A DNA stretch of 42,912 bases from Campylobacterota bacterium (lineage in GTDB: Bacteria > Campylobacterota > Campylobacteria > Campylobacterales > Sulfurovaceae): NCBI GenBank assembly GCA_003252535.1, contig QKDN01000066.1:1-42912 (forward strand), written 5' to 3'. The notes below the pieces were generated by a model. That model ran no database searches. It was not told the DNA's origin and worked only from the letters and a program-made list of their open reading frames with translations. Made by a program: the position numbers and the translations under genes. Within the stretch, counting starts at the first letter, position 1, and each line of letters starts with the position of its first letter. Shown piece by piece: positions 5,181-33,450 of the stretch.

Positions 5181-6155
5181 ATGAAGAAACTCCTGCTCCT
5201 CCTCGTCTTCCCCCTCCTGCTCCTCGCCAACAGCGACAGGCCCCCGGTCAAACACGACTTCCTCGCCCAGAAGAATGTCCAGAACTTCATCGACACCATG
5301 GTCAAAAAACACCGCTTTGAGCGGAGCTACCTCGAAAAGGTCCTCGGCAATGCCAGACTCGACCGCGACACCCTCGCACGCTACACGGGACAGTACAAGG
5401 TCGGCACGACCAACGGCCCGTGGGAGCGGTACAAGGCCCACGTCCTCGACCCCGTCACCCTCGCCAAGGCCAAAAAGTTCAAGCGGAACTACGCTTCCAC
5501 CCTCAACAAGGCGAGCCGCCAGTACAAAGTACCTGTGGAATATATCGTGGGGTTCATCGCAGTGGAGAGCAAATTCGGCGAATACACAGGGGACTACCGC
5601 CTCCTCGATTCGCTCTCGACGCTGGCATTCTACCCCAACCGTATGCAGAAGTTCTTCTACTCGGAACTTACCCACTTCTTCCTGATGTGCCGTGAAGAGG
5701 GATTCGATCCATACAGGCTCCAGGGCTCGTTCGCCGGTGCCATGGGGTGCGTCCAGCAGGTCCCGTCGGTCTACCGCCGCTACGGCATGGACTATGACCG
5801 CGACGGCAAAAAAGACCCCTGGAGCCTGAAAGACTCGATCGGTATCATCGCCAGTTTCATGAGCCGCAACGGATGGCGCAACGGCACCCCGGCAGCGATA
5901 GAGGCCGAGTACCGCTCCCCCATCTCCATCGCTACGGGGCACAAGCGAAAATACCCTCTCGCCTCCCTCACCGCCAAAGGGATCACGCCCAAAGCGAAGT
6001 TCACCGAATCAACTGCCTACCTGCTGAGCGTCGGCGACAAAAAAAGCCGCGAGGTCTACCTGGGTACGAGCAACTTCCGCATCCTCACCCGCTACAACAA
6101 TGCCACCACCTACGGCATGGCAATCCACAAGATAGCGGAGTATGTGAAGGAATGA
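5181..6155 (+). CDS. mltB: Lytic murein transglycosylase B-like (MltB family)
   Basis: A 324-aa exported lytic transglycosylase that would cleave the MurNAc-GlcNAc bond to give 1,6-anhydro products. It has a short signal sequence (residues 1-16, LLLLANS; possible lipobox absent), then an SLT_2/MltB catalytic domain. The catalytic Glu is in FIAVESKFGEY, followed by LDSLSTLAFYPNR and GSFAGAMGCVQQVPSVYRRYG, the family's GAMG-x-x-Q-x-x-P-S box. An acidic YDRDGKKDPW follows, as in the calcium loop of E. coli Slt35. The length is normal for the family. Start ATG 5181 has AAAGGATACTC upstream. Confidence 0.9.
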   Translation: MKKLLLLLVFPLLLLANSDRPPVKHDFLAQKNVQNFIDTMVKKHRFERSYLEKVLGNARLDRDTLARYTGQYKVGTTNGPWERYKAHVLDPVTLAKAKKFKRNYASTLNKASRQYKVPVEYIVGFIAVESKFGEYTGDYRLLDSLSTLAFYPNRMQKFFYSELTHFFLMCREEGFDPYRLQGSFAGAMGCVQQVPSVYRRYGMDYDRDGKKDPWSLKDSIGIIASFMSRNGWRNGTPAAIEAEYRSPISIATGHKRKYPLASLTAKGITPKAKFTESTAYLLSVGDKKSREVYLGTSNFRILTRYNNATTYGMAIHKIAEYVKE

Positions 6156-6160
6156 TCATT

Positions 6161-6230
6161 GTCATCCCTGTGAAAACGGGGAATCTGAGTGTGCAGCGGT
6201 ATGGATTCTCCGGGTCGCGACCGGGGATGA
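6161..6230. repeat. GTCAT-type nested palindromic intergenic repeat
   Basis: Two facing half-units lie at 6161-6186 (GTCATCCCTGTGAAAACGGG...) and 6203-6231 (GGATTCTCCGGGTCGCGACC...). Their outer arms TCATCCC and GGGATGA pair, and inner GAATC/GATTC arms pair. This has the look of the widespread intergenic palindrome of the form GTCATNCCNG...CNGGNATGAC. A diverged third half-unit is at 6358-6382. It is non-coding and starts just after the mltB stop codon. Confidence 0.65.
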
Positions 6231-6233
6231 AGG

Positions 6234-6348
6234 GCGTTGTAGGGTGCGCTTGCCAGCGCACCGTGGATCAGGCACAGGATTTGGTTGCAGATTGCATATT
6301 GCCTATCAAACGGAACCGATGGTGGGTTGGCAAACCCACCCTACGCCT
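6234..6348. repeat. REP doublet (BIME-like): two inverted GTAGGGTG hairpins
   Basis: The left unit begins TGTAGGGTG and folds as a 7-bp stem GGTGCGC/GCGCACC with loop TTGCCA (6243-6262). The right unit is in the opposite orientation: stem GGTGGGT/ACCCACC with loop TGGCAA (6321-6340), followed by CTACGCCTAC. Reverse-complemented, the right unit starts TAGGGTGGG and has the same TTGCCA loop, so the two are inverted copies with compensatory stem changes about 58 nt apart. This is the architecture of REP/BIME elements mobilised by RAYT (TnpA_REP) transposases. No RAYT gene is in the window. Confidence 0.75.
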
Positions 6349-6357
6349 ACCGTGTCT

Positions 6358-6382
6358 GTCATAACTGTGAAAATAGGAATCT
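6358..6382. repeat. Diverged third GTCAT half-unit
   Basis: GTCATAACTGTGAAAATAGG... aligns by eye with the half-unit at 6161-6186 with one gap and a few mismatches. It sits immediately downstream of the minus-strand gene ending at 6389. Confidence 0.5.
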
Positions 6383-6388
6383 CAAAAT

Positions 6389-6616
6389 CTACGCAAAAAG
6401 CGAACCGACTGAATCATCCTCGGCCACTTCGCACTCCTCGTTGAGCCCTGCAGCGGCCTCTTCGTAGCAATTATGGCAGAGATAGCGGTAGCTCTGCATA
6501 TCGTAGTAGATATGATCCCCTTCGCTGAACTCGTCGTAGCACTCGGCGCACATCCGCGCAACACGCGACATGATCTCCTCGGTCGCTACCTGGTCGATGA
6601 AACATTTCGGGCTCAT
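6389..6616 (-). CDS. Small CxxC zinc-ribbon-like protein, unknown function
   Basis: A 75-aa protein with two CxxC pairs, CAEC near residue 23 and CHNC near residue 48, spaced as in a small zinc ribbon, and an acidic C-terminal tail (EECEVAEDDS). I recognise no specific family. Its ATG overlaps the stop codon of the upstream TPR gene by 4 nt (ATGA), so it is translationally coupled to it and probably works with it. The stop codon lies just inside the palindromic repeat cluster. Confidence 0.65.
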   Translation of the reverse strand: MSPKCFIDQVATEEIMSRVARMCAECYDEFSEGDHIYYDMQSYRYLCHNCYEEAAAGLNEECEVAEDDSVGSLFA

Positions 6617-7257
6617 GCGCGCCCCTCTTTGAACTTCGTTACCATTTGGGCAGCCTCCTCGAGTTCGGGATCGAGTGCCAGCGCCTTTTCGTAAAGCTCC
6701 AGTGCCTCCCCGCTGCGGCCGAGGTCGTAGAGGGTATTGGCATAGTTGAAGTAGTGGGGTGCATAGTCGCTGTCGAGCTCGATGGAGTGTTTGTGGTGCT
6801 CTATGGCTTCATTCTCTTCGCCTAGCTGGTGGAGGGCATTGGCAAGCGCCGCGTGGGAGCTGTCGTCGTGTGGATCGATAGCGAGGGCCTTTTCGTACTG
6901 CTCTTTTGCCCCGCCGAAATCATTGATAGAACCGAGGATGTAGCCGTAGCGCACGAGGATATCGTGGTTCTCGCTGTCGAGGATCATCGCACTCTCGATC
7001 GCCTTTTTGGCCTCGATGAAATCCTTTTTGGATACTGCCTCGTCAGCCATAGAGAGCAGCTGCTCGACACGGGTCGGCTGCACTACAGGGCGGGAGAAGG
7101 TCTTGTCGGGTCTGTTGATCCCACCTATCTGGGCATTGTCGGTGGTAGCTTCGAAGTCTATTCCTCTTTTGGGGTAATCTTCGGTGAAGAGTTTCTTGAA
7201 AAATATATAGAAGACAGCTGCACTGAGGATGAGTAAAAAGAGTTGAAAAATCGTCAT
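6613..7257 (-). CDS. Membrane-anchored TPR protein
   Basis: A 214-aa protein with one N-terminal transmembrane helix (residues 2-19, IFQLFLLILSAAVFYIFF), a linker, then four to five tetratricopeptide repeats from about residue 65 to the end (for example AKEQYEKALAIDPHDDSSHAAL and the following units). TPRs serve as protein-protein scaffolds; the partner is unknown. Start ATG 7257 is preferred over the longer frame because CAGGAG lies 6-7 nt upstream. It forms a two-gene unit with the CxxC protein through a 4-nt overlap. Confidence 0.8.
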   Translation of the reverse strand: MTIFQLFLLILSAAVFYIFFKKLFTEDYPKRGIDFEATTDNAQIGGINRPDKTFSRPVVQPTRVEQLLSMADEAVSKKDFIEAKKAIESAMILDSENHDILVRYGYILGSINDFGGAKEQYEKALAIDPHDDSSHAALANALHQLGEENEAIEHHKHSIELDSDYAPHYFNYANTLYDLGRSGEALELYEKALALDPELEEAAQMVTKFKEGRA

Positions 7258-7385
7258 AAGCACTCCTGGATTTGATAGTGACATCATAGGTAAAACTAGC
7301 TTAATCTGCCAGTAAATATGTCAAATATCCATATTTTTTTACCAATGTTAGATATCATAATACAAATGAATTTTGGAGAATTATG

Positions 7386-19694: not shown

Positions 19695-20912
19695 TCAACT
19701 TTGATGTTTTACGACTTGCTTTAAAAAGTCGTTTAAACTCATTATCCACTCCTGTTGAATTGGCATATATGTTTGCCTTATAACATCGGGCACTACCAGT
19801 TGTACAGAAGCTCTTTTCATTTCGTCAGTCTGATCGGCACTGATAGCCGGTTCAAGTGTTATAAGATGTTTTGTGTCTATCAGATTTGCTTCTTTGGTAA
19901 TTTGACGCCATCTGTCTTTACAGGTTGTTTTTGCACCCAACATCATGAGCGATGGAATAAGTGTTGTATCTGTTCTCGCCTGTTGATAAGTCTCGATTGA
20001 AGGAAAAATAAAGTCTGGTTTTGATTTTCCTTCTGTTCTTTTACCCCGGTCATATTGTATTGAATGATCGTCTAAATGATTTTCAAAGGCATGACCTGCT
20101 CTTGATTTTCGTCTGTTCAGTACACTGTTCGCAAAAGATGCAAATTCATCCACATCCTGAAATCCTTTTTTTATCTGTTCTTCTATAATGTGTTTTTCCA
20201 GTGCCTTAAATAACTTTTCTTCATGGTTCCACCATTCCAGTAATACTACATCTGGATCATCTACGGAAGTAATAATACTGGTTTCATTTCTGGCAAATGC
20301 AGAAAACTCTTTGGTAGAAGGGAATACTCCCTGGAATCTTGCAAGGAGTTTTTCAATATCAGTTTGAGTATCATGTATTTCAAAACCAAATTTCTCCAGT
20401 ATGAGATTTTCAACACCTCTGAGATAGCTTTCCCTCTGAGGAAGCTCAGTTATTTGGTACTCTTTCGCATCTTCGTGATGATTATTTGCAAAAAGCCATA
20501 ATACTTGATTCTCAATAGTTGACTGATGTTCAGCGATAATTATCCAGACCTGTTGTCCATCAAATCCGAGAATCATCAAATCATTTTCACTGGCATATTT
20601 TTCAAATAATCTTGTTGAATAGTAGAGTCTGTACTCTGTCCGTGTTGCATGAGCATGTCGAGCATCATACCAAGTTACATATCCATTCTCAGAATGTGTA
20701 AACTCTGAAAGTTGATCGAAAATATTTTCTTCTTCTGTATCTGAAAGATAGATGAATCGGGCAGGTAGTGTCATCTTTGATGTCGGTATACCAAAAATCT
20801 CAACCAGTTTTTTGACACCATTAAGTTCATGTTGATTTGAAATAACCGGATCAGTTTCAACTTTTGAAAGTCTCTTTATCGCTACTTTTTGAAATAAATC
20901 AGTTAACTTCAT
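19695..20912 (-). CDS. EcoRII-like type II restriction endonuclease
   Basis: A 405-aa endonuclease resembling EcoRII (about 404 aa). The N-terminal 170 residues would be the EcoRII effector (B3-like) DNA-binding domain. The C-terminal half is the PD-(D/E)xK catalytic domain: acidic RAGHAFENHL, then KSKPDFIFPSIETY and LGAKTTCKDRWRQI with the catalytic Lys residues. EcoRII cuts before CCWGG, and the neighbouring methylase supports the same site. Start ATG 20912 overlaps the vsr stop by 4 nt and has GAGGAG upstream. Base composition is clearly more AT-rich than the flanking chromosome. Confidence 0.88.
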   Translation of the reverse strand: MKLTDLFQKVAIKRLSKVETDPVISNQHELNGVKKLVEIFGIPTSKMTLPARFIYLSDTEEENIFDQLSEFTHSENGYVTWYDARHAHATRTEYRLYYSTRLFEKYASENDLMILGFDGQQVWIIIAEHQSTIENQVLWLFANNHHEDAKEYQITELPQRESYLRGVENLILEKFGFEIHDTQTDIEKLLARFQGVFPSTKEFSAFARNETSIITSVDDPDVVLLEWWNHEEKLFKALEKHIIEEQIKKGFQDVDEFASFANSVLNRRKSRAGHAFENHLDDHSIQYDRGKRTEGKSKPDFIFPSIETYQQARTDTTLIPSLMMLGAKTTCKDRWRQITKEANLIDTKHLITLEPAISADQTDEMKRASVQLVVPDVIRQTYMPIQQEWIMSLNDFLKQVVKHQS

Positions 20913-21367
20913 TCGCTGCTCCTCATAACTTGCTGTTTTTCATCCGAAAGGATGAAAGAGACCGTTTTATCGATCAGTTCATCAAACTTCAATTTATATT
21001 TTCCCTTTATACTGCACTCCCAGATTGTCAAGACTTTCCAGTTATCATGCAAGAGATTTTCAATTGCTTTATTGTCATTTTCTTTGTTGATCCTGATTTT
21101 GTTTATCCAGAAATCAGTGCGCGTTGTCGGGACTACAAACAGATAACAGTGTTCATGTCCATGCCAGAAGCATCCATGTACAAAAATGACCGTTCTATAT
21201 TTTGGAAGTACAATATCAGGTGTCCCGGGCAATTTCCGTACATTCAGTCGATACCGAAATCCTTTTGCAAAAAGGGCTTTCCTTATTTTTATCTCAGGCT
21301 TTGTCTCCCTGGATCGTATTGCAGACATATTTTTGCTACGCTCTGCCTGAGATTTGATATCTGCCAT
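20909..21367 (-). CDS. vsr: Very short patch repair endonuclease Vsr
   Basis: A 152-aa Vsr endonuclease that nicks 5' of the T in T:G mismatches arising from deamination of 5-methylcytosine at Dcm sites. Characteristic segments are RSKNMSAIRSRETKPE, KLPGTPDIVLPKYRTVIFVHG, CFWHGHEHCYLF, TRTDFWINKIRIN and VLTIWECSIKG. The catalytic Asp (PDIVL) and the His/Cys zinc site (HGCFWHGHEHC) are in place. It starts 3 nt after the methylase stop and overlaps the endonuclease start, making a tightly coupled dcm-vsr-R operon. Confidence 0.95.
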   Translation of the reverse strand: MADIKSQAERSKNMSAIRSRETKPEIKIRKALFAKGFRYRLNVRKLPGTPDIVLPKYRTVIFVHGCFWHGHEHCYLFVVPTTRTDFWINKIRINKENDNKAIENLLHDNWKVLTIWECSIKGKYKLKFDELIDKTVSFILSDEKQQVMRSSE

Positions 21368-21370
21368 CAG

Positions 21371-22423
21371 TTATGCGTAGTGCTTGATTTTAAGTGATTC
21401 ATAAATATGATCTTTAAGTGCATTTGCAATAAATCTCACAACAGGAACAGCTACAGAATTTCCAAATTGTCTGTATGCCTGGGTATCAGATACAGGTATG
21501 ACAAAACTATCATCAAATCCCTGGAGTCTGGCACATTCTCTGGGAGTGAGTCGTCTGGGTCTGGAATCATCCTGTTTTATGAGGATTTCCGAACCATCCT
21601 TATGATATCTTGCAGACAATGTTCTTGCAGTATCGTTTTCCGTTACAAGTCCATAGCCAAAGCCGTTGCCTTTCTCCTTATGTTTTGCTGCATAATTCTG
21701 AAGATAACCCCATAGTTTTTCACTGAGAGTATACTTGGGATTGACAGCACCATCTGAAAAAATATACTCTTTGAATACATCATTTGATGACTGAGTGTGT
21801 TTGTCTTTTGTAGCATGAAGTATATCTTTGAGTTTTGGCATATTGTCATCATATGGGAGTATCAGTTTATCGATATCAAAATCTGTTTTATCTCTGAAAC
21901 CGATAATAAAAATTCTCTCACGATGCTGTGGAACAAAGGGTTTCGCATCAATGACACGGTAATGTATATGATATCCCAATTCTTCTCTGAGTGTTTTTTC
22001 GATTACTTTGAATGTATTGCCTTTATCATGACTAAGAAGATTTTTGACATTTTCCAGAAGGAAAACTTTTGGGCGGTGATAATCAATGATTCTGGCGACA
22101 TCAAAAAACAGAGTTCCCTGTGTATCGCACCTGAATCCATGTTGTCTACCCAGAGAGTTTTTTTTAGAAACACCTGCGAGCGAGAATGGCTGGCAGGGAA
22201 AACCTGCCAAAAGGACATCATGTTCCGGAATCTCTTCTTCTTTAATTTTTGTAATATCACCTGCAAAAAAATGTTTATCGGAGTTTTTGAAATTTGCCTT
22301 ATATGTTTGCTGACTAAACTTATCCCATTCACTGGTAAAAACACATTCTCCACCAATCTCTTCAAATGGTATTCGTATTCCGCCTATTCCAGCAAATAAA
22401 TCTATAAATCTAAAATTTGACAT
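21371..22423 (-). CDS. dcm: DNA (cytosine-5) methyltransferase, Dcm/M.EcoRII-like
   Basis: A 350-aa C5-cytosine methyltransferase with ordered motifs: [34 protein letters not shown] with the catalytic Cys, [43 protein letters not shown] and [14 protein letters not shown]. The stretch after motif IV ([20 protein letters not shown]) is very like E. coli Dcm and M.EcoRII, supporting CCWGG as target. ATG 22423 has GGAGGAATT directly upstream and is preferred to the 7-codon longer frame. It is first in the operon, so it is made before the endonuclease. Confidence 0.95.
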
Positions 22424-22563
22424 AATTCCTCCATGCTTTAACATTATACCTATGTCTATTTATATTGTATCATTCTTTATGGTAAGTGTAAAAATATATT
22501 TCACTATGAAATCATTATGTTGCAACACAAAAGTTTGGAACACTTAAAAAAACAATAGTATAC

Positions 22564-27336: not shown

Positions 27337-27909
27337 TCAGCGGCTTCGGTAGCTTAGGACGATATGGCAGTTCTCAGTATCTGTTTGTAACAGCTGGATA
27401 GTGATAATCTCCTCTGCTTTGAGACGATTGTTCTCCATGAACTTTGCAATATTATTGTTGATGGCCTCTTCACTGTATTTTGAAGGGATAATCTTCAGGA
27501 GTATTTTCGATTTTTGATCCAGCGACTTATACTTGAAATTATCACTTTCATAGTGGTTGAACTCTTTGGCATTGACCTTGTAGTTGAAAAGGTTGCCGTA
27601 GGTCGTGCCGCTGTCGTTGCCCAGGAGTCCGGCTATCAGGGAGCCCTCTTTTTCGTTCCACTGCCCGTCATGAAATTCATAGAAACTCTTCACACCGTAC
27701 TCATTCTCGATGATGATCAATGCACCCTCTCTCGCCCCGCGCGGAAACTGCTGTGCGTTTTGAATGGTCTGTGTCGTGTCAATGAGCTTTTTCAGTATGA
27801 CCGTGTCGTTGTTCTCCAGCAGCTGATCTATCTGTGATCCTCCCCACAACAATGAAGAGGAAAAAACAGCGAACAACAAACTTCGTATCAGAATAGACGA
27901 GCGTACCAT
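27337..27909 (-). CDS. Secreted protein of unknown function, last gene of the Hao operon
   Basis: A 190-aa protein with a signal peptide (about residues 1-24, SLLFAVFSSSLLWGG) and a soluble periplasmic region. No heme motif and a single cysteine (ENCHIVL near the end). A C-terminal part (LLKIIPSKYSEEAINNN, EIITIQLLQTD) looks alpha/beta. I recognise no family. The ATG lies 1 nt after the stop of the preceding secreted gene, so the two are coupled. By position it may be a periplasmic accessory or assembly factor for the cytochrome complex. Confidence 0.65.
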   Translation of the reverse strand: MVRSSILIRSLLFAVFSSSLLWGGSQIDQLLENNDTVILKKLIDTTQTIQNAQQFPRGAREGALIIIENEYGVKSFYEFHDGQWNEKEGSLIAGLLGNDSGTTYGNLFNYKVNAKEFNHYESDNFKYKSLDQKSKILLKIIPSKYSEEAINNNIAKFMENNRLKAEEIITIQLLQTDTENCHIVLSYRSR

Positions 27910-27910
27910 G

Positions 27911-28540
27911 CTACTTTGCCGTTGTTGTAGCGGTGATAAGTTTGTCTGATGAGATCATCAGGTAGGCATTAGCCTCTTTGGGCTCCTTTTGCTTGGTCAT
28001 GAACGGCTGGTCGGAGCTGAGCTTGACCGAAAGGTATGGATTGAATTCCACCTTCGAATCATCCGGACCGTTGGCCACGAAATCGGCAAGGGTCGTTGCA
28101 CCTGAAGATTTCTTGCCGATCTTCTCTTTCCATTTTTTGAGATCGTCTTCGGTAAACTTGCGGCCGTCAGCATCGAATATCCAGTAGACGATCTTCTCGT
28201 GCGCCATTGCAGTCGGCTCTTCATGTTCGTGTATCAGTTCACTGATCACCGATTTGAGCACAGAAGGATCGATCCTGTCATAGCGTTTGTTGATGGCCAG
28301 GACCCTGTTGTTACCGGTATTGACAGCTATGAGGAGATTATCATTGGCGAGGAACTTCCTGACATTCGGGTTGTCGCTCTGAAGTCCGTTCTTCTCCATC
28401 AATACCTTCTGATCATCGCTCAGGGCTTTGCCTACTATGTAGCCGTCTGTCCCCTTGTTGATCTTCTCCACATCTTCAAATACCCCTGCCTGCAGATTCA
28501 ATCCTGCGAACAATACTATACTTGCGATCAAACGTTTCAT
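27911..28540 (-). CDS. Secreted protein of unknown function downstream of hao
   Basis: A 209-aa protein with a clean signal peptide (LIASIVLFAGLNLQA, cleavage near residue 19) and no cysteine in the mature part, hence no heme. The N-terminal region looks like a small alpha/beta domain (EDVEKINKGTDGYIVGKALSD, LLIAVNTGNNRVLAINKRYD); the rest is mixed. No family recognised. ATG 28540 has AAAGGAACATT upstream. A strong hairpin separates it from hao, which suggests lower expression than the cytochrome. Confidence 0.65.
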   Translation of the reverse strand: MKRLIASIVLFAGLNLQAGVFEDVEKINKGTDGYIVGKALSDDQKVLMEKNGLQSDNPNVRKFLANDNLLIAVNTGNNRVLAINKRYDRIDPSVLKSVISELIHEHEEPTAMAHEKIVYWIFDADGRKFTEDDLKKWKEKIGKKSSGATTLADFVANGPDDSKVEFNPYLSVKLSSDQPFMTKQKEPKEANAYLMISSDKLITATTTAK

Positions 28541-28598
28541 AATGTTCCTTTGATTTGTAGTAATAAACCCTGCCATACAGGACTTAACACTGCAAATA

Positions 28599-28620
28599 CC
28601 AAAGGGCCGAAGCCCTTTGG
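28599..28620 (-). terminator. UUCG-capped hairpin immediately after hao
   Basis: On the minus strand a perfect 9-bp stem (CCAAAGGGC / GCCCTTTGG) closes a TTCG tetraloop, 9 nt after the hao stop codon, followed by TATTTG. The U-tract is short, so it may be a partial terminator or an mRNA 3'-stabilising element that raises hao expression over the two downstream genes. Confidence 0.7.
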
Positions 28621-28629
28621 CAATAAACA

Positions 28630-30210
28630 TTACTGCTTATATCTTGCCTTTTTCTCAGCCTCGATCGCTTTGAGAAGTTCAGGATTGCCGCCTGTTTTGT
28701 ACCACTCATGCTCTGGCTTGCTGAGAAGATCGTCGATCATTTTCTGATATTTCTCTTTCATCCCTGCCTCTTCGGCCATATGGAGCACTTTGGGGAGGAA
28801 CTTGTTGTAGAAATGTCTCGATACTTCGTACAGTCCGTGCCAGTGTGTATAGTCAGGAGCCTGCATCGCCGCACCGTGTCTGGTTCGTCTCCCCTCATGG
28901 TGCCAGATCTCGAACCAGATATAGCCGATATCATCCTGCTGGAAGCCTGTTTTTTTCCAGATACCGTCCTTTTTCATCTCTGCCACGATCGCTGCACCCG
29001 GTTTTGCGAACTTGTCGTTGTAGGTAGTGACGAGAGAATCGAACTGCATATAGAAGTTGTCCACATGGTGGTCAGAGTGGCATGATGAGCAGACCTGCTT
29101 CATGTTCTCTCTTCTGTCTTCCCATGAGATCACCTCTTTGACCTTCTTCTCTACTTTTACATTCTTGAGCTTGTCACCTTCCCTGATATAATCGCTGTAC
29201 ATCTGCACAGAGCCTACAGACGGCGCTTTGTCACCCGGGATATCCTGTACGGTGCCGTCTTCGAAGATCACACGGTTGAGCTTGACCGATACCGGAGGTC
29301 TGAGCGTCCAGCTGATGCGATCACCTACATTGTGCGTACCTTTGACTACCGAACCGTTGGATTTTTTGTAGCTTCCCATGTGGCATGTTGCACAGGTAGG
29401 AGCCGCGTTGTAATCCTTGCCGAGTACCCATGGGCCCTGCTTATAGATGTTCATACCACCTTTTTCATCCCCTTTTGGAGCTGCGTAGTATGCGATACCG
29501 TGCTTGGACTCTTCATAGACCTCTTTTTGCGGATGGTCTGGTCCGAGGTGGCATTTGCCGCAGTTCTCAGGCTGTCTTGCCCTGCTGGAACTGAAGTCGT
29601 GTCTGGAGTGACATGCGTTACATGAACCTCTTGTACCGTCATGGTTGATACGTCCGATACCCGAGTTCGGCCATGTCATCCAGTCCATCACAGGTGCGCC
29701 AGCGGCATTTCTGATCATATTGCCCTGTTCGTCCTTCTGGGGTTTGATCACCGAGCCGTGGCACTGCCAGCATCCGTTGACGGCGTCAGCCTTGGTATCC
29801 GGGAACGATGCGATCACCTCTGCGAGCATATTGTCAAGTGATGCCATGATCTGCCCGGCTGTCGCGTGGTGGGAATTGGTCATCTCTTTGACCTCTTTCT
29901 CGTGACAGAACTTACAGTCGTTCGGCGTCTGGATCGTTTTGATAAATGCACCTTCATGCTCATATCCAAGCGAATCCTCTTTGTTGGCCGCGTGACAGGT
30001 GTAGCATCCGACATCAGCGGCTGCATGAGCCGAATTCTCGTAGTGATCGACTATCGATCGGTTCTCTTTGAGGTGACATGTGATACATTTGTCATTGAGG
30101 TCTTTGATGTCCTCATGTCTGACCTTGGAGGATTCCTTGGTAGTCGCGAATACACTACTGCTCAATCCGATAGCCAGCGTTGCGGCTACCAACAGTTTAC
30201 CTAGTCTCAT
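28630..30210 (-). CDS. hao: Octaheme cytochrome c, hydroxylamine oxidoreductase (Hao) family
   Basis: A 526-aa periplasmic multiheme protein: signal peptide (LLVAATLAIGLSSSVFA) and eight CxxCH motifs in order CITCH (42-46), CYTCH (69-73), CKFCH (99-103), CWQCH (147-151), CNACH, CGKCH, CATCH, CSSCH. The region after the last heme has the Hao-family block WHHEGRRTRHGAAM..PDYTHWHG. In Campylobacterota such proteins (epsilon-Hao) are thought to act reductively, for example on nitrite or hydroxylamine, lacking the heme-P460 tyrosine crosslink; I cannot settle that residue without an alignment. ATG 30210 has AAAGGAGAG upstream. It is preceded by NrfD/FeS/tetraheme genes instead of the NapC-type CycX usual for epsilon-Hao. 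Confidence 0.9.
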   Translation of the reverse strand: MRLGKLLVAATLAIGLSSSVFATTKESSKVRHEDIKDLNDKCITCHLKENRSIVDHYENSAHAAADVGCYTCHAANKEDSLGYEHEGAFIKTIQTPNDCKFCHEKEVKEMTNSHHATAGQIMASLDNMLAEVIASFPDTKADAVNGCWQCHGSVIKPQKDEQGNMIRNAAGAPVMDWMTWPNSGIGRINHDGTRGSCNACHSRHDFSSSRARQPENCGKCHLGPDHPQKEVYEESKHGIAYYAAPKGDEKGGMNIYKQGPWVLGKDYNAAPTCATCHMGSYKKSNGSVVKGTHNVGDRISWTLRPPVSVKLNRVIFEDGTVQDIPGDKAPSVGSVQMYSDYIREGDKLKNVKVEKKVKEVISWEDRRENMKQVCSSCHSDHHVDNFYMQFDSLVTTYNDKFAKPGAAIVAEMKKDGIWKKTGFQQDDIGYIWFEIWHHEGRRTRHGAAMQAPDYTHWHGLYEVSRHFYNKFLPKVLHMAEEAGMKEKYQKMIDDLLSKPEHEWYKTGGNPELLKAIEAEKKARYKQ

Positions 30211-30256
30211 TTGTTCTCTCCTTTGCTGAATTTTCCGACCAACCAACCACAGATAA

Positions 30257-31444
30257 TCAAGCCGAATGCTCCCTGTCGCTCTCGCTCTCCCAGAGAGGGA
30301 ATATCCTGCTCAGCAGCCACAGCGTGACGATCGGAGCGACGAGCAGGATAATGCTCATCAATATTCCCTCTTTTTCGAACCAGAGCGGATGATAGGTAGC
30401 AAAACCTCTCTCGCTTTTTGCCATCAGCTGTCCCCCGATGACGACATTCCATCGCATGAAGAGCACCTGTGCCAAAAGCATCAGAGATACCAGGGGTGCA
30501 ACAAGCATCAATACACCTCTGCTGACATTTCTAAGCGACAGATACATCAGGATAAAGAACGGTATGATGGAGAGCACCTTGACCTGCATAGTCCAGAAAG
30601 ACCACTCGAGCGGGCCGTTCAGCGCAGAGCTGATATGGTGCCAGCCGCTGGTGCCTCCATATGCGTGGACGGCGATCTCGATCATCTCGAAAAGGAAATC
30701 GAGTATGAAGAATGTCCAGAGCAGCTTCACCAGTGTCTTGATCGTGTCAGTACTCACCTCATCCATCCTACCGGTGATCTTCTTGATCACTATATAGAAG
30801 AGGATCATCCCCGCCACACCCGATACGGAGGCGGAGAGGAGGAATATGATCGGCATCAGCGGGGTGAACCACCACTCCACCGTCTTGACCGCACCGAAGA
30901 TGAAGCCGACATATCCGTGCAGCATCGAAGCGAGGGGAATACCGATCGCACCGAGTACGAAAGCGACCTTATGGTCGATCTTTCTCCCCTCGGGAGATCT
31001 GTCGTTCGTCCAGAGTGTCAGTACATTGTAGATGAACTTCTTGACACCCGAAGACTTCTCTTTAAGGAGTACCATCTCGTATCTATAGATGAAGAGTATC
31101 TCGAAGATCAGCAGGATCGAATAGGACATATAGATATACCCGAATCCCGACATCATCGACGGACCGCCGAAATTTGGGGTGAAAAGCATATTGAGCGCGC
31201 GTTCGGGATGTCCGAGGTGATTGAGCAGAGGTGCGGTGACGAAGAGGAGCCACGAGAGGGCGAATATCAGCGCGAACTTCGCTATTGGCATCAGTGATCT
31301 GACATTGAAGACATGGGCAAGAGCCGAGACGATGAACGCCCCTGCGACGATCCCCGTGATATATGGATAGATCACGATCATCAGTGTCCAGTGCGCATGT
31401 GCGTCATTGGGAAAAACATAGTTCATTGCTTCTGTAACCATCAT
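30257..31444 (-). CDS. nrfD: NrfD/PsrC-type quinol-interacting membrane subunit
   Basis: A 395-aa integral membrane protein with about nine to ten helices, of the NrfD/PsrC family that passes electrons between (mena)quinol and a periplasmic FeS subunit without heme. Hydrophobic helices are obvious (YITGIVAGAFIVSALAHVF, LIFALSWLLFVTAPLL and others), and the PLLNHLGHPERALN loop is typical of the family. Start ATG 31444 overlaps the stop of the FeS gene by 4 nt. Together with the FeS protein it forms a quinol dehydrogenase module for the Hao cytochrome. The symbol is by family, not proof of Nrf function. Confidence 0.88.
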   Translation of the reverse strand: MMVTEAMNYVFPNDAHAHWTLMIVIYPYITGIVAGAFIVSALAHVFNVRSLMPIAKFALIFALSWLLFVTAPLLNHLGHPERALNMLFTPNFGGPSMMSGFGYIYMSYSILLIFEILFIYRYEMVLLKEKSSGVKKFIYNVLTLWTNDRSPEGRKIDHKVAFVLGAIGIPLASMLHGYVGFIFGAVKTVEWWFTPLMPIIFLLSASVSGVAGMILFYIVIKKITGRMDEVSTDTIKTLVKLLWTFFILDFLFEMIEIAVHAYGGTSGWHHISSALNGPLEWSFWTMQVKVLSIIPFFILMYLSLRNVSRGVLMLVAPLVSLMLLAQVLFMRWNVVIGGQLMAKSERGFATYHPLWFEKEGILMSIILLVAPIVTLWLLSRIFPLWESESDREHSA

Positions 31445-32256
31445 ACCACCTCCCCGTGCAGATCGATATAGTAGAGCTGCGGTTCGTTCCCCAGCTCTTT
31501 TTTGAGAACGCTCAGTCTTGACTTCGAGTAGTATATCTTCGCTACTTCGCTCTCTTTGTCATTGAGATCGCCGAATTTCCTTGCCCCCGTCGGGCAGGCA
31601 TTGACACAGGCGGGCAGCTTGCCCTTGCGCACCCTGTGGTAGCACCAGGTACATTTGTCGGCTGTCTTTCTCTCTTCGTTGATGAAGCGGACACCGTACG
31701 GACACGCCTGCACACAGTAGCCGCACGCTACGCAGTGCTCTTTGTCGATCAGCACGAAACCGTCCGGCGTAGTGAAGGTAGCCGCGACCGGGCAGACCTG
31801 CGTACAGCTTGGCTCATCGCACATGTTGCAGAGCTTGGGGACGAAGAATGCCTCTTTGACTTCCTTGATGGTATCGAGGATCGGGATATTGCTGTATCCT
31901 TTTTCTCCGCCGTGGGGTGCATCGACATAGACCTTGTTCATCATATCGATCACATAGCGCTCGACCCATGTACGGTATTGTCCTTCAGGGACATCGTTCT
32001 CTTTTCTGTCGGCTACGCAGCAGTTGCCGCATCCAATGCATCCGCTTACATCAACTATGAAACAATAGTTGGCATTGGGATTCATAGGATCGATAGTATC
32101 TTTGAGACTCTTCTCTTCGTTCAGCACTTCAGCAAAAAGCGGCGAGTGCATCGGGATCATCAGCATCAGGGAGCCGCCGATGGTCCCTTTGAACACCTTG
32201 TCGAGGAAGGAGCGTCTGTCCCTGTCGATATACTCCTGGGTGATCTTAGTTCTCAT
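31441..32256 (-). CDS. nrfC: Tat-exported 4x[4Fe-4S] ferredoxin subunit (NrfC/PsrB-like)
   Basis: A 271-aa protein. Residues 1-43 hold a Tat signal (DRRSFLDKVFKG followed by a hydrophobic segment). Four cluster motifs: CIGCGNCCVAD (73-83), CNMCDEPSCTQVCP, CVACGYCVQACPYGV, and CTWC...CVNACPTGA. In the first the fourth ligand is Asp83, with an extra Cys80, instead of Cys. It would wire NrfD to the heme subunits in the periplasm. ATG 32256 has AAGGAGG upstream and overlaps the end of the tetraheme gene by 11 nt. Confidence 0.9.
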   Translation of the reverse strand: MRTKITQEYIDRDRRSFLDKVFKGTIGGSLMLMIPMHSPLFAEVLNEEKSLKDTIDPMNPNANYCFIVDVSGCIGCGNCCVADRKENDVPEGQYRTWVERYVIDMMNKVYVDAPHGGEKGYSNIPILDTIKEVKEAFFVPKLCNMCDEPSCTQVCPVAATFTTPDGFVLIDKEHCVACGYCVQACPYGVRFINEERKTADKCTWCYHRVRKGKLPACVNACPTGARKFGDLNDKESEVAKIYYSKSRLSVLKKELGNEPQLYYIDLHGEVV

Positions 32257-32779
32257 TGAGCGCCTCCTTGAGTGATCTCTGATCTTTGACATGGTTGATA
32301 TTCTCGAGCGGAGCGTGTACCGTGTGGCACTGATCACAGGTGTGGGAAGGCTTCACTTTCTGCGCGGCCAGATGCCGGGCATGATCTATCATAGGGAACT
32401 TCTCGGGCCTGCCGATCGTCTTTTGATGGCAGCTGAGACAGAGACCGATCTGTTCTTTCCCTTTTTTGGTAGGCATTACAGCGAACTTATTGCTCCCTTT
32501 GGCATGCTCGCTGACAGGGGCGTGGCACATCTCGCAGGAGAGCCTCTGATGTGCCGAGTGGGATTTGAGCTCGCTGACCTCGGAGTGGCATCCTTTGCAT
32601 GACTCGTTGGTGCCGTACTTCATGGCTCTCTGGGCTTCCTCCTCTATCGAGTCACCCCTGTAGTAACCGTATTTGCCCCAGCTCTCCGGAAGCATTGCCA
32701 TCCTTCCGAGCACTACCACTGCTATGATACCGACAAATACCACTGTAAGCCGTATCCAGAACCTGTTTGGATTTTCCAT
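32246..32779 (-). CDS. Membrane-anchored tetraheme cytochrome c
   Basis: A 177-aa protein with an N-terminal uncleaved transmembrane helix (about residues 9-27, LTVVFVGIIAVVVLGRMAM) and four heme motifs: CKGCH, CEMCH, CLSCH and CDQCH. Size and heme count resemble NrfH/NapC-like donors, but the heme spacing and the missing canonical NapC sequence suggest a separate small-cytochrome family. As first gene of the operon it likely links the NrfCD module to the octaheme Hao. ATG 32779 has AAGGAGTGACGTAT upstream. Confidence 0.85.
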   Translation of the reverse strand: MENPNRFWIRLTVVFVGIIAVVVLGRMAMLPESWGKYGYYRGDSIEEEAQRAMKYGTNESCKGCHSEVSELKSHSAHQRLSCEMCHAPVSEHAKGSNKFAVMPTKKGKEQIGLCLSCHQKTIGRPEKFPMIDHARHLAAQKVKPSHTCDQCHTVHAPLENINHVKDQRSLKEALNEN

Positions 32780-32868: not shown

Positions 32869-32882
32869 TTGATCTATATCAA
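32869..32882 (-). promoter_or_regulatory. FNR/CRP-family binding site, perfect palindrome
   Basis: TTGAT-N4-ATCAA is exactly the FNR consensus. It lies 90 nt upstream of the tetraheme start and centres about 41.5 bp from the predicted start site. Members of the CRP/FNR family in Campylobacterota respond to oxygen, NO or nitrite; which one acts here is not known. Confidence 0.65.
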
Positions 32883-32961: not shown

Positions 32962-33084
32962 TGAGGTGTAACAATTGGCGTGTAGTCATGGCATTTCTCT
33001 CATGTCATGACAGGTTGCGGATAGATTTCCGTAAGAGATGGTTTTTCGGTAATGACCGGGAATAAAATGCACAAAGGATCGAAA

Positions 33085-33450
33085 ATGGTACGACATTTCA
33101 AAAAGACTGTATGGATCGCGGCATTGGCAATGATATTCACCGCTGCACTGGAGGCGCGGGATTATTATGGTGCGATCGCCTACTCCCCATCTACCCGGCA
33201 CTATGGATATTCATATGACTATGACTACAAGTGGGGAGCTGAAAATTCTGCCCTCAATCAGTGTAACAGAAACGACTGTCAGGTCGTGATATGGTTCAGG
33301 AATGCCTGCGGCGCACTGGCTATAGGCCCTTACGGCTACGGTTCCGGCTGGGGAAGCACACGCTACGGCGCGGAACAGGCGGCGCTCAGAAGCTGCCGCA
33401 AATACTCCAACGGCTGTAGGATAGAACGCTGGGTGTGTACGACAAGATAA
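33085..33450 (+). CDS. Secreted DUF4189 protein
   Basis: A 121-aa protein with a signal peptide (TVWIAALAMIFTAALEA, cleavage near residue 23) and a DUF4189-type domain: YGAIAYSPSTRHYGYSYDY, WGAENSALNQCN..DCQVVIWF, CGALAIG and AEQAALRSC, with repeated A..A....C motifs and conserved Cys pairs that would form disulfides in the periplasm. Function unknown. Start ATG 33085 is supported by AAAGGATCGAAA; two upstream in-frame ATGs at 33052 and 33067 lack a ribosome site. Divergent from the Hao operon. Confidence 0.8.
   Translation: MVRHFKKTVWIAALAMIFTAALEARDYYGAIAYSPSTRHYGYSYDYDYKWGAENSALNQCNRNDCQVVIWFRNACGALAIGPYGYGSGWGSTRYGAEQAALRSCRKYSNGCRIERWVCTTR

Follow-up and report, generated by a model that had tools for sequence, protein, structure and literature searches.

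A cassette of six genes in a Campylobacterota genome probably encodes a single periplasm-facing complex that oxidises menaquinol and reduces nitrite (and/or hydroxylamine) to ammonium. The nitrite function is suggested by the adjacency of such cassettes to nap genes, by the gene content of the host genome (NapA and Hcp are present; NrfA, NapC/NrfH, cd1-NirS and Otr were not found) and by a regulator box common to the cassette, napA and hcp. The cassette lies in the window, i.e. the whole stretch of 42,912 nucleotides analysed here, which is a contig (G000:C18) of a genome of 2.92 Mb with a completeness of 99.95%.

Gene content of the cassette

The original prediction described a six-gene unit on the minus strand, and all six open reading frames and their families were confirmed as one neighbouring unit at 27337-32779. 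The first gene (32246-32779, minus strand, like all those that follow) encodes a membrane-anchored tetraheme cytochrome c, with one N-terminal transmembrane helix and four CxxCH motifs. This protein has no match to the NapC/NrfH family (PF03264) even at an E-value of 1; it weakly resembles NrfB and the N-terminal part of octaheme nitrite reductase, and is a probable electron carrier linking NrfC and Hao. The second gene (31441-32256) encodes an NrfC/TtrB-like four-cluster ferredoxin with a twin-arginine signal (DRRSFLDK). Its first cluster motif, CIGCGNCCVAD, has Asp at the place of the usual fourth Cys and an extra Cys right after the third. In the general form CIGCG[NS]CCVAD, it was found in all 12 NrfC proteins compared (that of the window and 11 homologues, from two phyla), and it may mark this NrfC subfamily. 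The third gene (30257-31444) corresponds to an NrfD-type integral membrane quinol dehydrogenase subunit (PF03916, 121 bits), for which a sequence search of the PDB gave no match. The putative catalytic subunit is encoded at 28630-30210; it is an octaheme protein of the Hao family and carries a Sec signal. The unit is completed by the genes of two secreted proteins, orf209 (27911-28540) and orf190 (27337-27909).

The predicted overlaps between the first genes hold: the tetraheme gene and nrfC share 11 nt (the nrfC ATG is at 32256), and nrfC and nrfD share 4 nt. Further down, the gaps are of 46 nt (nrfD-hao), 89 nt (hao-orf209) and 1 nt (orf209-orf190), and a plausible ribosome-binding site precedes each gene, with the possible exception of orf190. 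Scans of the cassette region for sigma-70 promoters and terminators revealed no clear excess over shuffled sequences. The conserved gene order, the overlaps and the presence of a single upstream regulator box argue for one transcript.

The two orphan genes have diverged much more quickly than hao and nrfCD. Among the 397 genomes of the class, orf209 was detected in three, all of them carriers of the cassette; it has no Pfam match above cut-off. The protein encoded by orf190 belongs to no Pfam family and is confined to the Campylobacterota cassettes. Since both have signal-like N-termini, they are probably exported. Fold searches of the predicted structures (pLDDT 84 for orf209 and 75 for orf190) against the PDB gave nothing significant. 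The model of orf190 has a C-terminal ferredoxin-like fold, predicted with modest confidence, which weakly resembles NikR or dodecin. An MmoB-like match of orf209 (E = 4.5e-4, 20 bits for a cut-off of 245) was judged to be due to chance, as MmoB is cytoplasmic and the match had no other support.

Elsewhere in the window, an EcoRII-type restriction-modification set (19695-22444, minus strand) comprises a C5 cytosine methylase, a Vsr mismatch endonuclease and an EcoRII C-terminal domain protein.

Phylogeny and active site of the octaheme protein

As had been predicted, the octaheme protein belongs by its sequence to the Hao family: it matches PF13447 with 72.5 bits (gathering cut-off 21.9) and has eight ordinary CxxCH motifs. 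The closest solved structure by sequence is IhOCC of Ignicoccus hospitalis (PDB 4qo5, E = 5.5e-53 with a profile), followed by the anammox and nitrifier HAO proteins. IhOCC is, however, distant in the tree, and has Val in place of the active-site His and Phe in place of the Trp described below. Searches of the PDB and NCBIfam did not support Otr, an octaheme nitrite reductase or MccA as the catalytic subunit.

The evolution of the family was studied using 58 proteins; the nitrifier and anammox fragments from the PDB, which form long branches, were omitted. In this tree, the 13 cassette Hao proteins form one clade (support 100/100) and the 22 Campylobacterota epsilonHao proteins form a distinct one (100/100). 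The cassette clade groups with other Hao proteins from the Thermodesulfobacteriota group (99/99), and a quick tree that did include the long-branching nitrifier and anammox fragments agrees with this topology. An epsilonHao protein with a changed partner was rejected in view of the two separate clades. Of the original prediction, the replacement of the partner by NrfCD and a different tetraheme is supported; the octaheme protein is not an epsilonHao whose partner was swapped, and has a clade of its own, nested within a branch in which Thermodesulfobacteriota Hao proteins dominate. It seems likely that the Campylobacterota cassette originates from relatives in the Thermodesulfobacteriota. The nearest Hao relatives of the cassette clade in the tree have no assigned function, which counts against a role in nitrite reduction. 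The epsilonHao clade also contains a long Hao protein (about 510 aa, family f4) from another genome (L088 of G004, 5745-7277), the gene of which is directly downstream of a run of nap genes.

An active-site pair, D225-H226, is present in 13 of 13 cassette Hao proteins; in the alignment it corresponds to D267-H268 of the N. europaea HAO. All 13 likewise have a Trp (W457) at the position of the cross-linking Tyr and a Met (M449) eight residues earlier, a combination that was reported as the signature of reductive epsilonHao proteins (PMC8940962). Since a Trp replaces the cross-link Tyr of the nitrifiers, the sequence points to the reductive direction. An enzyme working in the oxidative direction, feeding electrons from hydroxylamine or hydrazine into the quinone pool, would be in line with the membership of nitrifier HAO and anammox HDH in the same family. 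Yet the Trp is found in every cassette protein, and the epsilonHao proteins that bear this signature are nitrite reducers (PMC8940962, citing Haase 2017), which makes such an oxidative function extremely improbable.

Distribution, nap linkage and regulator box

The search with the Hao protein led to seven named loci. A Hao-like match of any kind is present in 84 of the 397 genomes of the class, with an identity of at least 56% in only four. In the window's own family, which includes the Sulfurovum MAG G196 (L002), the cassette Hao was found in 2 of 175 genomes, and two other genomes carry the epsilonHao type. Comparing Hao neighbourhoods across Campylobacterota, as the original prediction proposed, revealed the identical six-gene order in five other genomes: the Sulfurovum MAG, an Arcobacteraceae (L003), an Arcobacter (L004), a Sulfurospirillum (L005) and a Sulfurospirillaceae (L007). 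This recurrence with unrelated flanks puts the order far beyond chance, and the differences between the flanks suggest that the unit travels as a cassette. The cassette of a Helicobacteraceae (L006) lacks orf190, and that of G195 (L086) is made up of tetraheme-nrfC-nrfD-hao only. The Hao of the latter diverges at otherwise fixed positions (438, 453, 456 and 458 in the window protein) and its host genome has NrfAH. This shortened cassette with its divergent Hao looks like a case of relaxation or changed function.

In two of these loci (L005 and L007), genes for a Crp/Fnr regulator, for a sensor with a PilJ domain, the sensory domain of NarX type, and for NapA come after the cassette. The NapA of L005 scores 1352 bits with the corresponding model, and napG is also present there, where the locus reaches far enough. 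Another arrangement was observed in the loci L074-L077 (genomes G432, G786, G584 and G712), which belong to the phylum of the Desulfobulbaceae genome G403 (Thermodesulfobacteriota group). There, tetraheme-nrfC-nrfD-hao-orf209 is co-directional with an Alginate_exp porin gene, a small tetraheme gene and napADGH-like genes, in a layout of 4+2+5 genes of which orf209 is the first spacer. The Hao proteins of these loci are 59-61% identical to that of the window. Their second spacer gene was not accepted as a homologue of orf190, as its Pfam family is Alginate_exp and the sizes differ. The linkage of the cassette with nap is thus found in two arrangements and in two phyla.

In the window genome, the nap operon (L084) and the cassette are on different contigs, which counts against the nitrite function. 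No NrfA (PF02335), cd1-NirS (PF02239) or Otr (TIGR04315) match was found in this genome and the cassette Hao is its sole PF13447 match, so that the cassette is its only nitrite reductase candidate among those searched. The same genome has no PF03264 protein anywhere, which agrees with the prediction that NrfC, NrfD and a different tetraheme protein take the place of a NapC/NrfH-type partner. Neither NrfA nor NapC/NrfH was found in G196 and G402. In contrast to these, and against the nitrite function, G347 and G195 carry both NrfA and a NapC/NrfH protein, so the cassette would not be their sole route.

An HcpR/FNR-type palindrome, TTGATATAGATCAA, is located at 32869-32882, i.e. at -103 to -90 from the first cassette gene. 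It is the sole match to TTGAY-N4-RTCAA in the window (0.27 expected). A divergent gene for a DUF4189 protein (33052-33450, plus strand) has this box within the intergenic region that it shares with the cassette. The whole genome contains 15 such sites (9 for a reversed-pattern control), three of which precede the cassette, napA (87-100 nt, L084) and hcp (52-65 nt, L105) at no more than about 105 nt. Given the site of the cassette, the chance of finding sites at both napA and hcp is about 3e-7 by our own arithmetic. The box is also found upstream of other cassettes, at -84 (L002), -90 (L003), -73 (L007) and, with one mismatch, -74 (L005); exact or with one mismatch, it precedes napA in G398, G196 and G347 and hcp in G402. 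The HcpR motif of the delta-proteobacteria is wyTTGACnnnnGTCAArw, and hcp, nrfHA and nar are among the members of the corresponding regulons (PMC1274295). The box would fit HcpR or FNR, whose sites share one form. A Crp/Fnr-type gene follows hcp in the window genome. It is likely that an HcpR/FNR-type regulator switches on the cassette together with nap and hcp. One could also suppose that the complex chiefly detoxifies nitrite, NO or hydroxylamine together with Hcp instead of serving respiration, since a box of HcpR type is common to the cassette and hcp and the HcpR regulons of many anaerobes centre on hcp and nitrosative stress (PMC1274295). Nevertheless, napA also has the box upstream, and the quinol-linked membrane module and the nap adjacency point to respiration; detoxification is quite unlikely to be the main role.

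Proposed electron route and related systems

The substrate, the direction of the reaction, the order of the electron transfer and the roles of the orphan proteins that we infer are the following. NrfD would oxidise quinol in the membrane, and the iron-sulfur clusters of NrfC would hand the electrons on to the anchored tetraheme cytochrome. This protein would fill the role of the E. coli NrfB and pass the electrons to the octaheme Hao, which would reduce the nitrite made by Nap to ammonium. The products of orf209 and orf190 would probably be exported assembly or scaffold factors, although these roles are guesses. In its logic, the system would resemble NrfBCD of E. coli, except that a Hao-type enzyme stands in for NrfA. 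The E. coli NrfABCD system has the same succession of NrfD, NrfC, a small multiheme carrier and a multiheme nitrite reductase (PMC12285233), but its NrfA and soluble NrfB are pentaheme proteins, whereas the cassette has an octaheme Hao and a membrane-anchored tetraheme. The epsilonHao systems with HaoC/CycX (Campylobacter, Nautilia; Haase et al. 2017) share with the cassette an octaheme Hao with the Asp-His pair, the Trp instead of Tyr and the Met eight residues before. They differ from it in their separate clade and in the NapC/NrfH gene directly upstream of the epsilonHao gene in G076 and G330, which has no counterpart in the window genome. A more elaborate scenario would make the NrfD module part of an energy-conserving (ion-moving) quinol:nitrite reductase, with the orf209 and orf190 products as structural parts of a hitherto unseen complex, the genes of which would have moved as a cassette from the Thermodesulfobacteriota to the Campylobacterota. 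The ion-moving NrfD would then set the cassette apart from the NapC/NrfH-wired epsilonHao and from NrfHA, which are electroneutral. As a whole, this scenario is unlikely.

The Wolinella MccACD complex also couples an octaheme catalytic subunit, a sulfite reductase, to an NrfCD-type module (PMC8076601). This raises the question of whether the cassette enzyme could be a reductase of sulfur compounds (tetrathionate, polysulfide or sulfite), similar to MccA or Otr and fed from quinol by NrfCD. The NrfC of the window obtains its best score with TtrB, the hosts are sulfur bacteria, and sulfur roles have been suggested both for a related locus described in 2017 (PMC5276818) and for other Desulfobacterota Hao proteins (PMC9213671). 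MccACD differs from the cassette in having no tetraheme carrier (PMC8076601), and MccA did not turn up among the relatives that the sequence searches of the PDB retrieved. Against a sulfur substrate, the catalytic protein, of the Hao family and with eight ordinary CxxCH motifs, is neither MccA nor Otr. The cassette also adjoins nap genes in two phyla and shares its box with napA and hcp. A sulfur substrate is quite improbable in this context, and the reduction of nitrite by the cassette complex is favored.

The 2017 locus is of direct relevance here. Slobodkina et al. described an 11-gene cluster in Thermosulfurimonas dismutans and Dissulfuribacter thermophilus, in which napMADGH is accompanied by genes for two periplasmic proteins of unknown nature and by a four-gene locus, for which they suggested a possible role in the reduction of nitrite or, alternatively, of sulfur compounds; both of these hot-vent bacteria lack NrfA and grow by nitrate reduction to ammonium (PMC5276818). 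The four-gene locus (TDIS_0606-0609 in T. dismutans, DBT_2326-2329 in D. thermophilus) encodes a transmembrane cytochrome, an Fe-S protein, NrfD and a Hao-type multiheme cytochrome, which also form one unit in the window. It differs in that it adjoins napMADGH with two spacers, whereas the cassette of the window is not beside nap and carries orf190 where the other has a porin gene. From their layout, and not by accession, we infer that the L074-L077 clusters correspond to those of T. dismutans and D. thermophilus. The core architecture, presented as new in the original prediction, and the nitrite hypothesis had thus already been published (PMC5276818). The Campylobacterota cassettes and their likely origin, the cassette-specific orphan genes, the separation from epsilonHao, the lack in the host of NapC/NrfH and of the further nitrite reductases that were searched, and the likely co-regulation with nap and hcp, also where these lie apart from the cassette, appear to be new, and no description of the Campylobacterota version was found in the literature searched, which was covered in part. 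Several nitrate-ammonifying anaerobes lack NrfA and their nitrite reductase has been a question since 2017. As the cassette recurs in Campylobacterota, beside nap or sharing its box, and is the only searched candidate in the window genome, this question can be addressed experimentally, in Campylobacterota or with heterologous expression.

These observations suggest that at least two unrelated modules connect Hao-type octaheme enzymes to quinol. This is of consequence for energy-yield counts and for the annotation of "hydroxylamine oxidoreductase" in environmental genomes. A parallel arrangement was observed in G697 (L080, 3563-8302), where a tetraheme protein, a different NrfC-like protein (32%), a 405 aa membrane protein and Hao are encoded together. 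Finally, G592 (L091, 1110-4250) encodes an octaheme protein of Hao type that has a hydrophobic helix at its N-terminus, beside genes that look Rieske-type by inspection, a possible third way of wiring Hao to quinol.
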